DNA of 64,000 bases, taken from positions 1 to 64,000 of the forward strand of contig JAILNQ010000019.1 of assembly GCA_024691425.1 (NCBI GenBank), read 5' to 3'. A program made the translations under genes and the position numbers. This document shows positions 44,895-53,828 of the stretch, piece by piece (the first letter of the stretch is position 1; each line of letters opens with the position of its first letter). The notes under the pieces are model-generated. The model did no database searches and was not told the DNA's origin. It worked only from the letters and a program-made list of their open reading frames with translations. The DNA comes from Lachnospiraceae bacterium. GTDB taxonomy: Bacteria > Bacillota > Clostridia > Lachnospirales > Lachnospiraceae.

Positions 44895-44922
44895 GCCCTG
44901 CCCTTAACTTTTCAACTAATGA

Positions 44923-44950
44923 ATTTTAGCATAAATACGGAAAAAATCAA
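44923..44950 (-). promoter_or_regulatory. Promoter of yihY-pheST-queA
   Basis: Minus-strand TTGATT (44945-44950), 16-base spacer and TAAAAT (44923-44928), right after the 6S RNA terminator. Confidence 0.6.
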
Positions 44951-44958
44951 ACAAAAAA

Positions 44959-44981
44959 GATTCTATAGAAACTATAGAATC
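44959..44981 (-). terminator. Terminator of the 6S RNA
   Basis: A perfect 10-bp stem (44959-44968 with 44972-44981), AAA loop, and TTTTTT on the minus strand. Confidence 0.9.
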
Positions 44982-44984
44982 CAT

Positions 44985-45165
44985 TGCCCCCGAAATGCCG
45001 ATTCCTGTATTTTGACTCCTAGCGTAATGCCAGGTGGGTAACCGCAACCGTATCTTCTGCCTTCCACCGAAAAGTTTGAGGCCTGACATCCGATCGGCGA
45101 TATAGGAATCCCGTTTAAAGTGATGTAGGTTCAAAATTACAAGAATTGACCGAACATTTCAGGTT
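44985..45165 (-). ncRNA. ssrS: 6S RNA (SsrS-type regulator of RNA polymerase)
   Basis: An unannotated, non-coding stretch of about 180 bases between a perfect promoter and a terminator. Its ends pair as in 6S RNA: CCTGAAATG (45155-45163) with CATTTCGGG (44989-44997), and the 5' side reads AAATGTTCGGTCA and the 3' side GGCATTTCGGGGG, like the conserved closing stem of 6S. Internal helices include GGGATTCCT with AGGAATC and GGTGG with CCCACC around a large central bubble region. 6S RNA mimics an open promoter and binds the housekeeping RNA polymerase. The assignment rests on pattern recognition; a covariance search would settle it. Exact ends are estimates. Confidence 0.75.
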
Positions 45166-45171
45166 AATTAG

Positions 45172-45200
45172 ATTATAACGGAAAACGTCTTAATTTACAA
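45172..45200 (-). promoter_or_regulatory. Promoter of the 6S RNA
   Basis: Minus-strand TTGTAA (45195-45200), 17-base spacer and TATAAT (45172-45177). Predicted 5' end near 45165. Confidence 0.8.
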
Positions 45201-45238
45201 GGAATAAAGCAAGATTTTTTACGATCGATTCATCATTT

Positions 45239-46462
45239 TCAGTAAATGATGTCGACTTCCTTGCCTTCCCATGTGAAAAGCTTAACATGCTCATCATCAG
45301 ATTCCTCGATATACTTCGGAAGAAGCGGTATCTTGCCGAGTCCGTGCGGAGCATTGAGTATGTACTGAGGTATGGCAAGCCCTGACGTATGGCCGCGCAG
45401 GTACTTCATTATCTTGAGTCCTTCATCGACGGTTATCTCAAAATGCCTCGTTCCCTTAACCTGTTTCGGATGGAAAATATAGTATGGCCTTACTCTTGCT
45501 TTTAACAGTCCTTCGTTGAGAAGCTGGACAATGTATTTGTCGTTGTTTATGCCTTTTAAGAATACCATCTGGTTTCCCATCGGGATACCTGCGTTCACAA
45601 TGCGTTCGCACGCCCTTACGGCATCATCCGTCAGCTCACCCGGATGATTGAACTGCGTATTGATAAAGAGCGGATGATACTTCTTCAGCATATCGCAGAG
45701 CTCATCGGTTATGCGCTGAGGCATCGTGACCGGAAGTCTCGTTCCTATCCTGATTATCTCTACATGGCTTATAGCCCTGACAGAACTTATTATCTTCTCC
45801 AGCATCTCATCGGGAAGCATGAGCGGATCTCCGCCCGTAATAAGGACATCCCTGATCTCTTTAGTGTTCTCTATGTACTTTATCGCGCTCTCGATGTTCT
45901 CCTCAGACTCGATCCGGTCGCACTCTCCGATCCTTCTTCGTCTCTGGCAGTGTCTGCAGAACATCGCGCATGAACTCGTCACGTTGATAATGAGCCTGTT
46001 AGGATACCTTCTTGTGATGCATGGTGCAGGATTTGTGTATTCTTCGCTCATAGGATCGAGCTCGCCGCTCTCGTCATTCTCCTCGGCCGAAGGCAATGCC
46101 ATCATGTTTATCGGATATGTCATATCCTCATAATCCATCAGCGACAGATAATAAGGCGTCGTTGCCCAGCGGAATTTCTTTGACACTTCCTCGAACATAG
46201 CATACCTGCTTTCCGAAAGCTTGATGAATTTGGAAAGCAGAGATACAGAACTTATGCGGTGGCGCAGCTGCCAGTGCCAGTCGTTCCAGTCGTTCTCATC
46301 GGCATCAAAATAGTTCATCAGCTCTTCTTTATGCTTCTTCGAAAGCACATCCCTTATCTCGGCCGTCTCGCGCAGGAAATCTTCCTTGAATGCCAGATAA
46401 TCCTCTATTTCCCTGTGCAGCTCATCCGCTCGCTCGAGAGATATTCTCCTCTTTTCGTCCAT
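45239..46462 (-). CDS. eam: Glutamate 2,3-aminomutase (radical SAM, PLP)
   Basis: 407 residues. The Cx3Cx2C cluster motif (C165, C169, C172), GGDPLML, and the PLP Lys377 in GLGKIPLLP define the lysine 2,3-aminomutase family. The two Asp residues that hold the lysine side chain in that enzyme are replaced by Lys333 (HPKQVKG) and Asn370 (ILNAPHG). This Lys/Asn pair is the known mark of glutamate 2,3-aminomutase, which converts L-glutamate to beta-glutamate. It is the last gene of the tyrS-dlt-like operon, 12 bases after the SGNH gene. Beta-glutamate is best known as a compatible solute; a link to the neighbouring acyl-transfer genes is speculative. Confidence 0.88.
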   Translation of the reverse strand: MDEKRRISLERADELHREIEDYLAFKEDFLRETAEIRDVLSKKHKEELMNYFDADENDWNDWHWQLRHRISSVSLLSKFIKLSESRYAMFEEVSKKFRWATTPYYLSLMDYEDMTYPINMMALPSAEENDESGELDPMSEEYTNPAPCITRRYPNRLIINVTSSCAMFCRHCQRRRRIGECDRIESEENIESAIKYIENTKEIRDVLITGGDPLMLPDEMLEKIISSVRAISHVEIIRIGTRLPVTMPQRITDELCDMLKKYHPLFINTQFNHPGELTDDAVRACERIVNAGIPMGNQMVFLKGINNDKYIVQLLNEGLLKARVRPYYIFHPKQVKGTRHFEITVDEGLKIMKYLRGHTSGLAIPQYILNAPHGLGKIPLLPKYIEESDDEHVKLFTWEGKEVDIIY

Positions 46463-46474
46463 AACAGTTTTCCT

Positions 46475-47479
46475 CTATTTCTTACTCCAGTACCTGTCGT
46501 ATTTCTTTGCGTCTCTTCTGTCGCTGACCTCATAGTTCGCATTGATGTAATCACCGAGGTATTCTGAGAACTTCTCCGCACCCGTATGATTCAGATGGCT
46601 TCCCATATCTGGTGTATCTTCCTTGAAATTGAGACCTATATCCCTTCCGTATCTGTCAAAGTTTATATAAGTGATCCCGTATTCATCGGCTATCGCCGAA
46701 ATCTGTACATCAAGCGCATCAGACCAGTTGCTCGAAAGCGAAGGTGTCTTGAAAAGCAGCAGCTGAACACCATTATCAGCACACAGCTCTATCGTCTTTC
46801 TAAGGTATTCTTCATTCTTCGGGCTGATCTTCTGATCCGGGGAGCCAGCATAAGTCAGGTCCTCGGTCTCCGCGGGCCCGACCTCATAGTCCGCTATGTA
46901 GCCGTTCATAGTAACGGGGGAAAGGTACCATGCATATCTGATGTCATCCCATGTAAACTCTTTCCACCTCGAATGGAACCGAAGGATCGGGATCAAGTAC
47001 TCAACAAGCCTTTCATCTTCTCCCATCGAAGCAAGTGCGCACTCTATCTTTGATGAAGAAAGCCGCATGCCGTCAACTGATTTTCGTGTGCTCGGCTCCT
47101 CGACGAAATCATCATCATACTTGATGAAAGTCATGTCGAGGCATACGAGCTCGGGTTTATGGCATTTAATGGCATCTTCTGTCATGTAATATGATATCCA
47201 CATCGTCTGCGAGGCATTAGCGCGCACAAATGCGGATATCCCGTCGCGCTCCCATAAAACCTTCGGGTCGATCCCGGAAAAGACGACTGAAGACCCGACA
47301 AAAAGGACATCAGAGACGGATGACGCCGGATAGTATTCCTGTGTTATCCTGCCGTCCTTGCTCTCCTCGTCGAGGTACTTCGGCATCATTATCCTTGTAA
47401 GCGTTACCGCGAGAAATACAATGAGAATGATTTTCAGCAGGACCGTTATTATGTTTTTGATAAGTTTCTTTAGCTTCAT
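46475..47479 (-). CDS. SGNH-type exported protein, DltD/AlgJ-like partner of MBOAT
   Basis: 334 residues. A basic N-terminus and membrane anchor (about 10-30) is followed by an extracellular SGNH hydrolase fold: GSS at 62-64 holds the likely nucleophile Ser and GSHLNHTGAEKFSEYL near the end supplies the His. Such proteins complete O-acyl transfer onto cell-surface polymers with an MBOAT protein. It resembles DltD only loosely. It starts six bases after the MBOAT gene. Confidence 0.82.
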   Translation of the reverse strand: MKLKKLIKNIITVLLKIILIVFLAVTLTRIMMPKYLDEESKDGRITQEYYPASSVSDVLFVGSSVVFSGIDPKVLWERDGISAFVRANASQTMWISYYMTEDAIKCHKPELVCLDMTFIKYDDDFVEEPSTRKSVDGMRLSSSKIECALASMGEDERLVEYLIPILRFHSRWKEFTWDDIRYAWYLSPVTMNGYIADYEVGPAETEDLTYAGSPDQKISPKNEEYLRKTIELCADNGVQLLLFKTPSLSSNWSDALDVQISAIADEYGITYINFDRYGRDIGLNFKEDTPDMGSHLNHTGAEKFSEYLGDYINANYEVSDRRDAKKYDRYWSKK

Positions 47480-47485
47480 CCTTAT

Positions 47486-49081
47486 CTAGAACGCTCCGTA
47501 TATGAACGATGCCGCATCAAATCCCGGCCCGTAGTATCCGAATACCGAAACTGCAAGGACAAGCAGCGATAGGAAACACCACTGCACCGGAACAGGAAGA
47601 GCGAAAATCTTTGCACGAACGCTCCCTCTTCTTTGTATCAGATCGACGATGAACATTATCACAATGGCAATCGCGGCAACGATCATCTCCTCCATCGGAA
47701 GCGAAAGATTCTCAAAAATCCTGTTTATATCGAAATGCCCCCATCCCTGGAAGACATACGAAAATGCCGTGAAAGCATCCTTCACGTCTCGGTTTATGTC
47801 AAAAAGCCTAAGAAACGACATGAGCCAGAAAGTCTTGCCGGCCCTGTACGCTCTCATGACAAAATCGCTTTCAACAAGAGTGAGCTTTGCTGTTATTTTC
47901 TTCGACAGAGGCTCGAGTTCGGTTCCGAGCACTATGAATACGAAATTGAAAAGTCCCCAGACGACATAACGGCTTTCTGAGCCGTGCCACATTCCGGTCA
48001 GAGTCCAGACAAAGAGCATCGGCACATATATCGGTATCCGCTTTCCGAGAGCAGTCATCTTTTGCTCTCTTGCGATCCTGCCGAGTTTGATGATCCCCTT
48101 GTTCAGCGACAGAGGATAGAAAATGTAATCCTTGAACCACGTCCCGAGCGTTATATGCCATCTCTGCCAGTATTCCGATATCGACTTCGAGAAGAACGGC
48201 CTCTCGAAATTCTCAGGAAGCTTTATCCCGAACATCTCGGCGACACCGAGCGCCACATCTATACCGCCTGAGAAATCGCCGTAGATCTGCATGGAATAAG
48301 CAAATATCGCTATGACTATGTAGAAACCTCTGTATGCGTCCTTCTGTGCCATCGTTTCAGAGACAAAACCCGCAAGCCTGTCCGCGATCACGAGTTTCTT
48401 AAAAAGTCCCCACATTATCCTGTAGAATCCCGACTTTAATCTGGCAAAATCGAAGTCTGCACCTTCATAAAGCTGAGACGCGATCTGTCCGAACCGGCTG
48501 ATAGGACCCTGCACGACCTGCGGGAAGAATGACACATAGAGAGCGAACTTGAAGAAATTGCGCTCCCTGCCGTATTTACCGTAGTAAATGTCGATAAGAT
48601 ACCCCATCGTCTGAAACGTATAAAATGAAATGCCAAGAGGAAGCAGAAAATCCCTGAATGGTATGAAATCCGTCCTGCCGTAATGAGTCAGGCGGAAAAG
48701 GTTGATATACGCTATCGTTATATTGGCATATTTAAGATATGCGAGAATTCCGAAATTCAGAAGAAGTCCGGCAATAAGGATAAGTTTCTGCCGCTTCTTT
48801 ACGCCGGCTTTATATGCCTTCTTCTCCTCCTTGGAAATGTCCGCGCCCTTATCATGAAGATACGCATCCATTCCCTCCTTTTTCTTCTCGATGAGGAATG
48901 CGCATATATATGCCGAAACTGTCGTGACGGCTATGTATATCAGATTTTCGGTTCCGCTCTGAGCGTAGAACGCATAGCTTGCAACAAGAAGAACTATCCA
49001 TCTGAACTTCTTCGGAACAGCAAAGTAAATCAGAAGAGCCAGACAAACGAACAGAGCAAAGTCGATGGAGATCAGTGACAT
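47486..49081 (-). CDS. AlgI-type MBOAT O-acyltransferase
   Basis: 531 residues with about 11 membrane helices. LPLGISFYTFQTMGYLIDIY (about 148-166), FPQVVQGPI and the two conserved His, H309 in WQRWHITLGTWF and H366 in MWHGSES, mark the MBOAT family. The long AlgI-type body, and not the shorter DltB, fits best. It should move acyl or aminoacyl groups from the carrier protein across the membrane. Genes for the carrier and the SGNH partner flank it within a few bases. Confidence 0.9.
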   Translation of the reverse strand: MSLISIDFALFVCLALLIYFAVPKKFRWIVLLVASYAFYAQSGTENLIYIAVTTVSAYICAFLIEKKKEGMDAYLHDKGADISKEEKKAYKAGVKKRQKLILIAGLLLNFGILAYLKYANITIAYINLFRLTHYGRTDFIPFRDFLLPLGISFYTFQTMGYLIDIYYGKYGRERNFFKFALYVSFFPQVVQGPISRFGQIASQLYEGADFDFARLKSGFYRIMWGLFKKLVIADRLAGFVSETMAQKDAYRGFYIVIAIFAYSMQIYGDFSGGIDVALGVAEMFGIKLPENFERPFFSKSISEYWQRWHITLGTWFKDYIFYPLSLNKGIIKLGRIAREQKMTALGKRIPIYVPMLFVWTLTGMWHGSESRYVVWGLFNFVFIVLGTELEPLSKKITAKLTLVESDFVMRAYRAGKTFWLMSFLRLFDINRDVKDAFTAFSYVFQGWGHFDINRIFENLSLPMEEMIVAAIAIVIMFIVDLIQRRGSVRAKIFALPVPVQWCFLSLLVLAVSVFGYYGPGFDAASFIYGAF

Positions 49082-49084
49082 TGC

Positions 49085-49312
49085 TTATTCTTCCTCAAGT
49101 GTTCTCACAAGCTCCGCTATGGCCTCGGCCGAATTGAAGTTCTCAGGTATCATATGTTCCGCGGTTATCTCTATGTCGAATTCATCCATGAGCTCACCGA
49201 CTATAGTCACAACATCGAACGAGTCGAAGATCCTCTTATCGATAAGACCTGTTTCAGTCTCATAGTCCACCTCGGGATGAACTGCTTTTAAAATTTCGAT
49301 TATCCTGTCCAT
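49085..49312 (-). CDS. Acyl/aminoacyl carrier protein (DltC-like)
   Basis: 75 residues, acidic, four-helix carrier fold. Ser31 in FDSFDVVTIVGELMDEF is the site for phosphopantetheine (canonical DSL). It should carry the amino acid activated by the adjacent ligase. Adjacent genes are 13 and three bases away. Confidence 0.88.
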   Translation of the reverse strand: MDRIIEILKAVHPEVDYETETGLIDKRIFDSFDVVTIVGELMDEFDIEITAEHMIPENFNSAEAIAELVRTLEEE

Positions 49313-49325
49313 AATATCCTCCGTT

Positions 49326-50831
49326 TCAGATCATTTCCTTAAGCTTCACCCTGTCGGCTTTGCCGCTCTTCAGCATCGGGAATTCATCAAGTTTTTTCGT
49401 TACGTTCGGTATCATGTACCGCTGCAGGCGCTTCTTGAGCGCCTCAGTAAGCGACATGTCATCATAGGCATCCGTTTCATAGAAGAGAACTATCTTATCC
49501 TTTGCGCTGTCATAAACGCAGCATGCGTTCTTCATGTCGGGAAGCGCCATGACCGCGGTCTCTATTTCGCCGAGCTCGATACGGTGCCCCATGTGCTTTA
49601 TCTGAAAATCCTTGCGCGATACGAATACGAGCTCATGCCTGTCATTGTATTTCGCAAGGTCTCCGGTTCTGTATATCTTCTCGCTGTAGTAGCTGTTGAG
49701 CGGATTCTGTACGAAAACCTCATCGCTCCTTTCCCTTGCGTTGTAGTATCCCATTGCAAGGCAGCTTCCTTTTACACATATCTCTCCGACAGTGCCGCTG
49801 CGGCTTATCAGCCGGTCTTCATCATCGAGAAGGAACACTTCGGTGTTCCTGAAAGCTTTTCCGATAGGGATAGTCTCGTCGTCAGAATAGTCCCTGTCGA
49901 CGATATGATACGTGCATACGCCGGTTATTTCCGTAGGACCGTATATCTGCACGAAAACAGCATCCGGATAGTTGGCTTTCCAGTAGTTGTATACCTTTAC
50001 GGGCATCGATTCAGCACCGAAAATGATCTTGCGCAGCTTTTTGGGCTTCAGCGACTTGAACCCGTTGAAGACAGACACCATCTTCATTGCGGAAGGTACC
50101 CATCTTATCGTTGTGACGTTATATTTTTCGAGAAATTCCAGAAGGCGCAGCGGTACGGAGAAATAGTCAAGGGGCACTATTCCCATCGAAGCATGCGCAT
50201 AGACCGTGCAGTATATATCAATGAGCGAAGCATCAAAGTAGAACGGCGCCTGATTCGCGATAACGTCGTCTTCAGTAATACCGATCTCATTGCAGAACTG
50301 CTCAACATAGTCGATGAGCGAGCGGTGGCTGACTACTACACCTTTAGGAACACCGGTAGAGCCGGATGTATAAAGAACATAGACAGGATCAGTATCGATA
50401 GAGGTCGCAAGCCTCTCTGATAGCAGGTTCTCATCGACAGGCGTCTCCGTCATCTCCTCATAAAGGAAAACGTTGTTAGAGAACTTGCGCGCCATGTCGT
50501 AATAAGTCATGTCGGTAATAACTGCGGCCGGCTTGAGGTTTTCGACTATGAGCCGGATTCTCATCTCCGGCATCCCTGTGTCTATCGGGACATAGAAATT
50601 CCTGCTGTAGACACAGCCCCAGAACGCGGCTATGACAGCGGGCGATTTATCCATGTAAACAAGCACAGGCCTGCATTTTACGTTAAGCTTTGTAATGAGT
50701 TTCGTGCCTATCGCCTTTACGGCCTTCAGCATCCTGTCATACGAAAAGCTTATCTGCTCGTCGAAATAGGCCGCCTTGTCAGGACAGGCTTTTGCACTTT
50801 CAAATAAATATTCAAGTATATTAGTTTTCAT
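49326..50831 (-). CDS. DltA-like amino acid-activating ligase
   Basis: 501 residues, the length of DltA. Adenylation motifs: YTSGSTGVPKG (154-164), amino-group-binding Asp200 in FYFDAS, YGPTE near 298, YRTGDLAKY, and the terminal Lys in KSGKADR. It adenylates an amino acid and loads it onto the adjacent carrier. In DltA the D-alanine pocket is lined by a Cys in FCGE; here the same position is Gly272 in IFGAESMP, so the substrate may not be D-alanine. It follows tyrS by ten bases. Confidence 0.85.
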   Translation of the reverse strand: MKTNILEYLFESAKACPDKAAYFDEQISFSYDRMLKAVKAIGTKLITKLNVKCRPVLVYMDKSPAVIAAFWGCVYSRNFYVPIDTGMPEMRIRLIVENLKPAAVITDMTYYDMARKFSNNVFLYEEMTETPVDENLLSERLATSIDTDPVYVLYTSGSTGVPKGVVVSHRSLIDYVEQFCNEIGITEDDVIANQAPFYFDASLIDIYCTVYAHASMGIVPLDYFSVPLRLLEFLEKYNVTTIRWVPSAMKMVSVFNGFKSLKPKKLRKIIFGAESMPVKVYNYWKANYPDAVFVQIYGPTEITGVCTYHIVDRDYSDDETIPIGKAFRNTEVFLLDDEDRLISRSGTVGEICVKGSCLAMGYYNARERSDEVFVQNPLNSYYSEKIYRTGDLAKYNDRHELVFVSRKDFQIKHMGHRIELGEIETAVMALPDMKNACCVYDSAKDKIVLFYETDAYDDMSLTEALKKRLQRYMIPNVTKKLDEFPMLKSGKADRVKLKEMI

Positions 50832-50840
50832 ATCAAAGCC

Positions 50841-52070
50841 TCAGGAGAACAGCGCTTTCTTGAAATTCTTCTTTCCTTTCCTTATGACACGGCCCTCGCC
50901 GAAGTCATCTGCCTTCAGCGAATAGAACGGATCGCTTATCTTCTCGCCGTCTATAGAAACACCGCCGCCGTCAACGCATCTTCTTGCATCAGAACGTGAT
51001 GTCGCAAAACCGCACTTTATGAGCAGCGCCTGTATATCTATCGTACCGTCGCGGAGGTCTTCTTCATGTATCTCAACTGTAGGCATGTCTGCGGAGTCAC
51101 CTGAAGAAAAGATCGCTCTTGAAGCGCTCTTGGCCTTCTCGGCTTCCTCTTCGCCGTGCACGAGCTTGGTGAGCTCATATGCGAGTATCTCCTTTGCCTC
51201 GTTGAGCTGAGCGCCCTCCCATGAGTCCATCTTGTCAATTTCCTCAAGCGGAAGGAACGTGAGCATGCGTATGCATTTTAATACATCGGCGTCATCGACA
51301 TTTCTCCAGTACTGGTAGAACTCGTAAGGGCTCGTCTTATCAGGATCGAGCCATACTGCACCGCCTACGGTCTTGCCCATCTTCTGTCCCTCGGAATTGA
51401 GAAGCAGCGTTATCGTCATCGCATCCGCCTTCTTCTCACCGTACTTCTTCCTGATGAGCTCTCTGCCCCCGAGCATATTGCTCCACTGGTCGTCTCCGCC
51501 GAACTGAAGGTTGCAGCCGTATCTTCTGTAGAGCTCAAGGAAATCGTAGCTCTGCATTATCATGTAGTTGAATTCAAGGAAAGAAAGTCCTCCGTCCCTC
51601 TCAAGCCTCTGCTTGTAGCATTCGGCTCTCAGCATGTTGTTGACATGGAAATCCGCGCCGACTTCACGAAGAAGTTCAACGTAGTTGAGCTTTAAAAGCC
51701 AGTCGGCATTGTTGACCATTATCGCCTTGCCGTCCGAAAAATCGATGAAACGGCTCATCTGCTTCCTGAAGCATTCTATGTTATGCTCTATCGTTTCGAC
51801 CGTCATCATCTTCCTCATTTCGGTCTTTCCGGAAGGGTCCCCGATCATTCCGGTTCCTCCGCCAAGAAGCGCTATAGGCTTATTGCCGGCCATCTGGAGT
51901 CTCTTCATAAGGCAGAGCGCCATGAAATGACCGACATGAAGGCTGTCGGCCGTCGGATCGAATCCTATATAGAACGTAGCCTCTCCGTTGTTCACAAGCT
52001 CTTTTATACGTTCCTCATCAGTAACCTGAGCTATGAGACCTCTGGCTACCAGTTCTTCATAAATCTTCAT
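50841..52070 (-). CDS. tyrS: Tyrosine-tRNA ligase
   Basis: 409 residues, class I. The HIGH-type motif HVGHFM near 46, [11 protein letters not shown] near 195, and KMGKT near 232 (KMSKS equivalent) are present, with a C-terminal S4 RNA-binding domain. RBS GGAGG lies before ATG. It is the first gene of the operon that continues into the dlt-like genes. The 144-base upstream region is too short for a T-box and shows none. Confidence 0.97.
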
Positions 52071-52104
52071 AACAATCCTCCGTCACATAGTGTATCAGTA
52101 TAAA

Positions 52105-52132
52105 ATTATAGCATTAAAGCCGTTTAAGTCAA
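52105..52132 (-). promoter_or_regulatory. Promoter of the tyrS-dlt-like-eam operon
   Basis: Minus-strand TTGACT (52127-52132), 16-base spacer and TATAAT (52105-52110), about 35 bases before tyrS. It is the only convincing promoter found ahead of the six-gene run. Confidence 0.78.
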
Positions 52133-52170
52133 TGCCTGCAATACCTGTCCGGTATGATATTCAGCCCAAG

Positions 52171-52198
52171 AAAAATGCCCCGCGGATTTCCGCGGGGC
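52171..52198 (-). terminator. pckA terminator
   Basis: A perfect 9-bp GC-rich stem (52177-52185 with 52190-52198), four-base loop, and TTTTT on the minus strand. Confidence 0.93.
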
Positions 52199-52214
52199 CT
52201 TCATTACATATCGA

Positions 52215-53828
52215 TCAAAGCTTCGGGCCTGCAGCAACTAATGCCTTACCCTTCTCGTTCGTCTCGTACTTCTTGAAGTTCTTGATGAACCTTCCTGCGA
52301 GATCTTTAGCTTTCTCCTCCCACTGTGAAGGATCGCTGTATGTATCTCTAGGATCAAGGATTTCCGTGCTTACGCCGGGAAGCTCTGTAGGAACCTCGAA
52401 ATCGAAGTAAGGAATCTTCTTCGTAGGTGCATTCTTGATGTCTCCGTTGAGGATAGCATCGATGATACCTCTCGTATCAGGAATGGAGATTCTCTTGCCT
52501 GTTCCGTTCCAGCCCGTGTTAACGAGGTAAGCCTTAGCTCCGCTCTTCTGCATCTTCTTTACAAGCTCCTCGCCGTACTTCGTAGGATGAAGCTCAAGGA
52601 ATGCCTGGCCGAAGCAAGCTGAGAATGTAGGTGTAGGCTCTGTGATTCCGCGCTCTGTTCCGGCAAGCTTTGCAGTGAATCCTGAAAGGAAGTAATACTG
52701 CGTCTGCTCCGGTGTAAGGATTGAAACAGGAGGAAGCACTCCGAATGCATCAGCTGAAAGGAAGATAACGTTCTCTGCATCAGGACCTGATGAAATTCCG
52801 TTAACGTTCTTAGCGATGTTCTTGATGTGCTCTATAGGATAAGAAACACGTGTGTTCTCTGTTACGGACTTGTCAGCAAAATCGATCTTGCCGGCTGCGT
52901 CAACAGTAACGTTCTCGAGAAGAGCGTCTCTCTTGATAGCGCCATAGATGTCAGGCTCGTTCTCCTTTGAAAGGTTGATGACTTTCGCATAGCATCCGCC
53001 CTCGAAGTTGAATACGCCGTTGTCATCCCAGCCGTGCTCGTCATCACCGATGAGGAGTCTTTTCGGATCTGTGGAAAGCGTTGTCTTACCTGTTCCGGAA
53101 AGTCCGAAGAAGATAGCCGTATGCTTACCTTCCATATCAGTGTTTGCAGAACAGTGCATTGAAGCCATTCCGTCAAGAGGAAGGAAGTAGTTCATCATTG
53201 AGAACATACCTTTCTTCATCTCTCCGCCGTACCATGTGTTCAGGATAACCTGCTCACGGCTCGTTACGTTGAAGAGAACAGCGGTCTCAGAATTGAGGCC
53301 GAGCTCTTTATAATTTTCAACCTTAGCCTTAGAAGCCGTATATACTACGAAGTTAGGCTCGAATGCAGCCTCTTCCTCTGCTGTGGGCTTGATGAACATG
53401 TTTCTTACGAAATGAGCCTGCCAAGCAACTTCCATTATGAAGCGGACAGACATTCTTGAATCCTTGTTTGCACCGCAGAATGCATCGACTACGAAAAGTC
53501 TCTTGTCTGAAAGCTCTTTGATAGCAAGCTTCTTACACTCTTCCCATGCATGCTGTGTTGCAGGATGGTTATCGTTGGGATACTCCTCGCTCGTCCACCA
53601 TACGGTCTCGCGTGCCTTCTCATCATCAACGATGAACTTGTCTTTAGGAGAACGTCCCGTGTAGATACCCGTCATAACGTTGACGGCGTCAAGCTCGGTA
53701 AGAACACCCTTGTCATAACCGGTAAGCTCGGGCTTCATTTCCTCTTCAAAAAGAAACTCATTTGAAGGGTTGTAGATAACCTCGGTCGTTCCGGTGATGC
53801 CATACTTGGTAAGATCAATGTTAGCCAT
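52215..53828 (-). CDS. pckA: Phosphoenolpyruvate carboxykinase (ATP)
   Basis: 537 residues. It interconverts oxaloacetate plus ATP and PEP plus CO2; in anaerobes it often runs toward oxaloacetate. The kinase motif [11 protein letters not shown] near 240, the RSPKDKFIV region near 59, [16 protein letters not shown] and the acidic metal site IGDDEHGW near 260 identify the ATP type. RBS AAGGAG is before ATG. It is transcribed alone. Confidence 0.97.

Follow-up and report, generated by a model that had tools for sequence, protein, structure and literature searches.

In a 64,000-nucleotide stretch of a Lachnospiraceae genome (GenBank assembly GCA_024691425.1, contig JAILNQ010000019.1, positions 1 to 64,000; hereafter the window), five consecutive minus-strand genes form one cassette encoding an amino-acid ligase, a carrier protein, an MBOAT acyltransferase, an SGNH-type transferase and the glutamate 2,3-aminomutase Eam. 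We propose, with a probability of roughly 60%, that this Dlt-like cassette makes its own amino acid, beta-glutamate, and would esterify a surface polymer with it. An earlier interpretation of the DNA alone (the sequence-only reading) had suggested that an amino acid, which might not be D-alanine, is transferred to a surface polymer, and this suggestion is supported, fitting all the sequence evidence obtained. The coupling of eam to the cassette, which that reading had called speculation, holds, as eam occurred only with one ligase type in our sample of the family.

In the proposed mechanism, Eam would convert L-glutamate to beta-glutamate, which the ligase would activate with ATP and load onto the 75-residue carrier. 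The MBOAT protein would then bring the acyl group through the membrane and attach it to the tyrosine in the FIYGAF hexapeptide at its own C terminus; from this tyrosine the SGNH protein would take it to esterify a hydroxyl of the surface polymer. We infer beta-glutamate as the loaded group, the ester and the polymer, and the acyl-tyrosine step from homology to PatA and DltX. The genes and sites concerned are the following.

50841..52070, minus strand: tyrS, tyrosyl-tRNA synthetase, operon head (TIGR00234 403 bits, cut-off 114)
49326..50831, minus strand: amino-acid ligase (adenylation enzyme), 501 residues, substrate code DAIRIGIGV (TIGR01733 322 bits, cut-off 317)
50103..50105, minus strand: R243 codon of the ligase (GrsA position 278); may anchor a carboxylate (predicted function)
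49085..49312, minus strand: carrier protein, 75 residues, attachment Ser31 in DSFD (NF003464 and PF00550 matches)
47486..49081, minus strand: MBOAT acyltransferase, 531 residues (PF03062 74 bits, cut-off 27)
47489..47506, minus strand: C-terminal acyl-shuttle hexapeptide FIYGAF, MBOAT residues 526-531 (FXYXXF motif)
46475..47479, minus strand: SGNH-type transferase, 334 residues, with Ser64, Asp291 and His295 (weak Lipase_GDSL_2 match)
45239..46462, minus strand: eam, glutamate 2,3-aminomutase (radical S-adenosylmethionine, pyridoxal phosphate [PLP]), 407 residues (TIGR04368 599.7 bits)

The operon has six open reading frames (ORFs), all on the minus strand, and spans 52132 down to 45239. ORF coordinates confirmed the six-gene order given in the sequence-only reading (tyrS, ligase, carrier, MBOAT, SGNH, eam) and its gaps of 3 to 13 bases, which measure 9, 13, 3, 6 and 12 bases. 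Any role for tyrS in a hybrid operon was not supported and we dropped it, since tyrS is the single copy in the genome and in many relatives is not adjacent to the cassette. The five other genes are one cassette and tyrS is a passenger.

Protein families and conserved residues

The ligase was compared with DltA, the D-alanine ligase of the Dlt pathway. The DltA model TIGR01734 gave it 272 bits, far under the cut-off of 560, and at E 1e-100 none of 99 ligase relatives reached this model, while the B. subtilis and L. lactis controls did. By sequence the ligase is not DltA. Its nearest named records (81-82% identical) come from Lachnospiraceae metagenome-assembled genomes, several named for rumen samples, and the host is most probably a rumen-type Lachnospiraceae without a cultured member. 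The substrate code was read at what we take to be GrsA positions 235, 236, 239, 278, 299, 301, 322, 330 and 331. It is DAIR(I/V)GIG(V/I) in 34 ligases, here called DAIR-I, and DAVRIGNGV (DAVR-N) in three relatives whose cassette lacks eam. Each named DAIR-I record that turned up was a metagenome-assembled genome. R243, at position 278, was invariant in 34/34 DAIR-I ligases and present in the three DAVR-N ligases too, and Arg at this site was not seen in the other ligase classes whose codes were read. R243 may hold a free carboxylate of the substrate; Asp-activating domains carry Lys at this position. At the sites of the DltA D-alanine cavity, which were placed provisionally by motif, the ligase has Ala201, Ile204 and Gly272, not the Leu, Met and Cys described for B. 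cereus DltA in PMC8972799.

The carrier scored under family cut-offs, with NF003464 (DltC) as its best NCBIfam match at 28 bits against a cut-off of 68 and PF00550 at 19.4 against 20.8. The MBOAT protein scored 150 bits against the DltB model TIGR04091 (cut-off 375), and DltB chains (8jem, 6bug; E 2e-35) were the only solved relatives found. H309 and H366 of the MBOAT alignment were invariant in 24/24 relatives, as were F526 and Y528 of the shuttle hexapeptide. According to PMC12148441, the FXYXXF hexapeptide of DltX occurs fused to PatA-type MBOATs, DltB is without it, and MBOAT/SGNH pathways apart from Dlt have no carrier protein. The cassette combines a carrier with an MBOAT-fused shuttle motif. 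The label "AlgI-type", given to the protein in the sequence-only reading, was thus half right: the fused C-terminal hexapeptide is PatA-like, but AlgI was rejected as the nearest MBOAT because DltB chains alone were found as solved relatives.

The SGNH protein scored 18 bits against Lipase_GDSL_2 (cut-off 33), an NCBIfam search gave no match, and Pfam detected the family weakly, in 21/29 relatives at E 0.01. The DltD family PF04914 matched none of the 29 SGNH proteins at E 0.01. A PDB profile search with the SGNH alignment returned no usable match (the best was a short chain without relation to the family, at 0.006, followed by two chains resembling GDSL lipases, at 0.36). Ser64, Asp291 and His295 nevertheless lie in the expected blocks, and Asp291, His295 and Asn297 were invariant in 29/29. 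The Ser64 column varied by cassette: DAIR cassettes have Ser there (GSS), the eam-less ones read GPS, and most members of the DAKC class described below have Cys (GDC).

The 599.7-bit TIGR04368 score of Eam is under the curated cut-off of 650 but 172 bits ahead of the next of nine families; the lysine aminomutase model gave 427.5 bits (cut-off 525). Eam has a CxxxCxxC motif at 165, and its Lys333 and Asn370 occupy the sites of Asp293 and Asp330 in lysine aminomutase (2a5h). Lys and Asn were found at the two substrate sites in 30/30 cassette Eams and 19/19 others, and presumably also stand there in the C. difficile Eam. Ruzicka and Frey reportedly described the significance of these two residues in 2007.

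Linkage of eam to the ligase type

Our family sample comprised 299 genomes from 298 genera, including the window's genome (G000). At E 1e-118, eam was found in 4/299 genomes, and at E 1e-120 a ligase relative in 84/299. The four eam genomes (G000, G129, G317 and G349) had ligase, carrier, MBOAT, SGNH and eam in order within 6 kb and shared the ligase code DAIR-I-G-I-G. The eam gene and the DAIR-I ligase occur in the same 4/299 genomes and in no others of this sample (Fisher p 3e-9, uncorrected for descent). Outside this type eam was absent (0/80 other ligase-bearing family genomes), with other amino-acid enzymes in its place. The fifth family-sample genome with a near ligase, G025, had no eam.

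We also searched a genus sample of 37 genomes (G000-G036) for ligase and eam. The DAIR-I-type cassette or pieces of it were present in 30/37, and 29 of these 30 had eam: 21 on the ligase contig, 7 on another contig, and one in G021, whose contig begins at the carrier and where no ligase was found. G007 is the exception: its contig breaks off behind MBOAT, and eam was not seen. Three of the 37 genomes (G010, G025 and G031) had the cassette without eam, and in G005, G027, G028 and G029 neither of the two ligase types was found and no eam, G027 being just 59% complete. Several of the genomes compared are incomplete metagenome assemblies. The check set beforehand, whether eam is missing from most homologous clusters, found it in 4/4 family genomes and 29/30 genus genomes with clusters, or pieces of clusters, of the same type. 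In two genomes outside the family sample, G099 and G101, contig ends broke the cassette and eam lay beyond the break.

More broadly, eam was present in 12/392 genomes at order level and 43/391 at class level. Of the eam contexts beyond the family, 20 were examined, and none held relatives of the ligase, carrier, MBOAT or SGNH genes (BLAST E 1e-6), which argues that eam was recruited into the cassette; three further contexts (L157-L159) had no cassette relatives either. The 30 complete cassette Eams formed one side of a branch separating them from 19 stand-alone Eams (support 99, quick tree).

The three eam-less genus members allowed a comparison at matching loci, which involves these further features.

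50220..50222, minus strand: I204 codon of the ligase (GrsA position 239); three eam-less relatives have Val
49944..49946, minus strand: I296 codon of the ligase (GrsA position 322); three eam-less relatives have Asn
44983..45168, minus strand: 6S RNA, directly 3' of the operon, bounding the eam slot, outside the cassette (RF00013 58.9 bits)

In near relatives of the window the order is SGNH, eam, 6S RNA, and in G010, G025 and G031 the 6S RNA starts 50, 36 and 36 bases behind SGNH, respectively. The G010 and G025 genomes are 99% complete. Among the 133 ligase positions invariant in the 34 DAIR-I ligases (a set that includes G007 and G100, where eam was unseen since the cassette runs off the contig), two differed in all three eam-less ligases, I204V and I296N, and both are code positions. 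The chance of both changes falling on the 7 invariant code positions is 0.0024, or 0.043 with 28 first-shell positions, and the I-to-N change was already visible in the code table before this all-position test. Of 101 MBOAT positions invariant in 32 proteins, the three eam-less members differed at one, the final residue of the shuttle motif, where FIYGAF becomes FIYGNI. Fixed differences elsewhere numbered 0/249 in tyrS, 0/22 in the carrier and 1/38 in SGNH, the last an alignment gap and no substitution. Identity fell from within a core of six eam bearers to between groups for the ligase (78.8 to 68.3%), MBOAT (71.3 to 62.4%), carrier (83.7 to 79.4%) and SGNH (65.0 to 61.7%), while tyrS was 88.4% identical between groups and 87.4% within the core. 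The tyrS of G031 reads as two overlapping ORFs (L147 204-1085 and 1082-1999), which is either an assembly fault or a broken gene.

Flanking genes gave a different history from the cassette. A tree of pheT, pheS, queA, pckA, gpmI and tyrS (2728 columns, 9 genomes) paired G010 with G033 and G025/G031 with G004, and both G033 and G004 bear eam. These genes rejected a single clade of the three eam-less genomes (approximately unbiased test, p-AU 2.5e-51), and with it a single loss of eam in the species tree. The ligase, MBOAT and SGNH trees instead united the three with support of 100/100, 100/100 and 100/99. Because the flanks split the trio that these cassette genes unite, eam presence follows the cassette, not the species. 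The eam-less type is of one origin with two arrivals, and the eam-less cassette, including its different ligase code, was apparently passed in one piece between two lineages at a single site (L145-L147 versus L178 and L179).

Known systems and competing explanations

The Dlt pathway (DltX, DltA, DltB, DltC, DltD) for D-alanylation of teichoic acids likewise has a ligase, a carrier, an MBOAT (that of the cassette being nearest to DltB), an SGNH-type partner and an acyl-tyrosine shuttle motif. The cassette differs in its ligase and SGNH families as above, in its order (ligase, carrier, MBOAT, SGNH), in a shuttle fused to MBOAT in place of a separate DltX, and in having eam within the operon. A separate DltX microprotein was sought within the operon and not found there, where gaps of 3-13 bases leave no room for one. 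From its sequences the cassette would work like Dlt but is not a member: its ligase matches DltA neither in score nor in pocket, its SGNH protein is outside the DltD family, and its operon has no separate DltX. PatA/PatB peptidoglycan O-acetylation and AlgI-type MBOAT/SGNH pairs share the C-terminal FXYXXF MBOAT and separate SGNH protein (PMC12148441), but use acyl-CoA without a carrier, whereas here a ligase and carrier precede MBOAT. Also related are the macrolactam beta-amino-acid pairs VinN and IdnL1, again a stand-alone ligase with a carrier, for which a radical S-adenosylmethionine enzyme has been proposed to supply beta-glutamate. In PMC11284099, IdnL4 is a likely glutamate 2,3-aminomutase supplying beta-glutamate whose activity was not seen in vitro, and in incednine synthesis the beta-glutamate intermediate undergoes decarboxylation prior to loading and becomes part of a polyketide. 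The window's operon is without decarboxylase or polyketide synthase, and membrane transfer genes follow instead. Stand-alone eam genes belong to the same family with the same Lys/Asn sites, and the cassette eam differs by its operon and its tie to one ligase type. In open-licence literature we found no paper joining MBOAT and aminomutase, and nothing on point for Lachnospiraceae MBOAT/teichoic acid, Butyrivibrio dlt, racemase with DltA, or beta-amino-acid teichoic acid.

Several observations weigh against the beta-glutamate reading. Since Arg243 is also retained in the eam-less ligases, it is not by itself a mark of beta-glutamate, and the substrate code alone cannot separate beta-glutamate from glutamate or aspartate. 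The Eam, carrier and MBOAT proteins all score under curated NCBIfam cut-offs. G100 carries a DAIR-I ligase, but eam was not found in it; its cassette reaches SGNH at a contig end, and elsewhere in the genome there is only a 33%-identical Eam relative. As the eam-less type arose only once, the pocket change is a single observation, and the independent-pairs test (n = 2) was not significant and cannot reach significance. For eam elsewhere an osmotic role has been proposed (PMC9337991 and PMC7835215). The retained Arg243, this published osmotic role and the commonness of stand-alone eam genes outside the family would all suit a cassette of the same mechanism whose ligase loads L- or D-glutamate or aspartate, with the beta-glutamate from Eam serving another purpose, for instance as an osmolyte. 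We consider this variant unlikely, if worth keeping in sight: in the family eam was never without a DAIR-I ligase (4/4), its absence coincides with changed code residues, and an osmolyte enzyme would have no need to travel with one variant of the ligase from lineage to lineage.

An ordinary D-alanine Dlt system, with eam and tyrS as chance passengers, would share the logic of ligase, carrier, MBOAT and SGNH and the nearness of MBOAT to DltB. It is very improbable given the DltA score of less than half the cut-off, cavity residues (provisionally placed by motif) that are not those of DltA, the lack of a DltD match in all 29 SGNH proteins and the conserved linkage to eam. We likewise give little credence to a secreted small molecule containing beta-glutamate; the macrolactam pairs are a precedent for such a product (PMC11284099), but the operon genes include no synthetase for a larger molecule, and MBOAT and SGNH with a shuttle motif are the known layout of polymer acylation (PMC12148441).

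If the esterification of a surface polymer with beta-glutamate is true, it gives eam a second use beside osmoprotection, the role with which the gene has been associated to date. The amino-acid ester established for teichoic acids is D-alanine, and D-serine has reportedly been found in methicillin-resistant Staphylococcus aureus. A beta-glutamate ester would be near neutral, because a free carboxylate stays beside the amino group, and would not cut surface negative charge as D-alanine does.

Ligase classes, partner enzymes and neighbouring features

Other Lachnospiraceae ligase-carrier-MBOAT-SGNH cassettes, with codes DAKC.. and DVK.., have the same layout and related proteins (ligases 42-50% identical), and where the window has eam these have a racemase or PLP enzyme. 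We counted partner enzymes in two sets of loci. The first held 80 named ligase loci (for eam, within 7 kb). Among 17 DAIR-I loci, eam was within 7 kb in 8 and farther off in two (L151, L152), and seven were cut by contig ends. DAKC/DARC loci had a racemase in 28/42 and a PLP enzyme in 2/42, DVK loci a PLP enzyme in 12/16, DAVR-N loci eam in 0/2, and three DNLF loci no partner enzyme. The second came from the 84 family genomes with a ligase relative and held 97 ligase loci, in which eam adjoined DAIR-I in 4/4, a PF01177/TIGR00035 racemase DAKC..LGM in 24/28, and a PLP enzyme of the ornithine/diaminopimelate decarboxylase type (PF02784/PF00278, under the lysA cut-off) DVK in 28/38. The three DAKC..LG[VI] loci had one racemase and one PLP enzyme, and the minor classes few partners (DAVR-N 0/1, DNLF 0/6, SM.Y 0/9, one PLP enzyme in 8 others).

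Across the three main classes, 56/70 loci matched their own enzyme and none was crossed, compared with a mean of 19.1 and a maximum of 33 in 20000 label shuffles. With first-sample loci and DAIR/DAVR removed, there were 47 matches among 85 loci versus 17.7 when shuffled. These classes are ligase subfamilies, so descent contributes to the matches and the shuffles ignore it. Carrier and MBOAT were both within 6 kb in 4/4 DAIR-I, 24/28 DAKC..LGM and 29/38 DVK loci, so not every locus is a full cassette.

The pattern raises a wider proposal, on which we are evenly divided: that Lachnospiraceae use interchangeable aminoacylation cassettes in place of Dlt, each tuned to a non-standard amino acid made by an enzyme of its own operon, namely beta-glutamate from the aminomutase, probably D-aspartate or D-glutamate from the racemase, and a third amino acid from the PLP enzyme, and that species exchange entire cassettes at a single chromosomal site, thereby altering their surface chemistry. 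Should this rule be true, the surface chemistry of gut Lachnospiraceae could be mapped from their ligase codes, class by class. The racemase beside the DAKC..LGM ligase in those 24/28 loci is of Asp/Glu type (for example L050 8280-8999 and L021 8235-8954), which suggests ester-bound D-Asp or D-Glu in these cassettes; that of L050 also exceeds the cysteate racemase cut-off. The racemase class includes cultured Pseudobutyrivibrio (L050 and L060). In SM.Y ligases (9/97 loci, e.g., L251 and L302) Ser replaces the Asp that holds the amino group, and carrier and MBOAT lie beside 7/9, so the substrate is perhaps not an amino acid. At L046 (5529-8873) and L075 the PLP enzyme and, by eye, a transglutaminase-like membrane protein are fused in one long ORF, and many DAKC loci encode a similar protein as a separate gene upstream of the racemase.

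The window's genome has a second cassette (L141, G000:C74) with a DVKIMSLCN-class ligase, carrier, SGNH-like gene, MBOAT and PLP enzyme, as well as a phosphonopyruvate decarboxylase (TIGR03297 442 bits, cut-off 312). The same genome encodes two proteins joining YidC-like (PF02096) and sulfatase (PF00884) domains (L308 136-2739 and L309 190-2760), one of them adjoining L141 on the other strand; they are a faint hint of a phosphoglycerol polymer.

Upstream of tyrS lies one further feature of the operon.

52105..52132, minus strand: sigma-70-like promoter site, TTGACT-16-TATAAT, extended -10 (consensus scan, 11/12)

This was the best of 15 promoter-like sites within 44900-52400, a region whose shuffles yield 10.4 such sites (sd 3.6); it is a sigma-70-like candidate, and a consensus match alone is not evidence of function. 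The 6S RNA has its own promoter-like site (45200-45172) and a terminator-like stem (44982-44958). It was at the matching place behind the cassette in 7/8 relatives searched (L145, L146, L147, L167, L171, L179 and L180), the eighth, L178, being cut by a contig end. The cassette region is rich in tRNA synthetase genes (tyrS, pheS, pheT), and at four loci a tryptophanyl-tRNA-synthetase-like gene (by eye) lies between SGNH and eam (L151 14400-15539, L153 10160-11305, L155 10612-11796 and L175 4771-5880).

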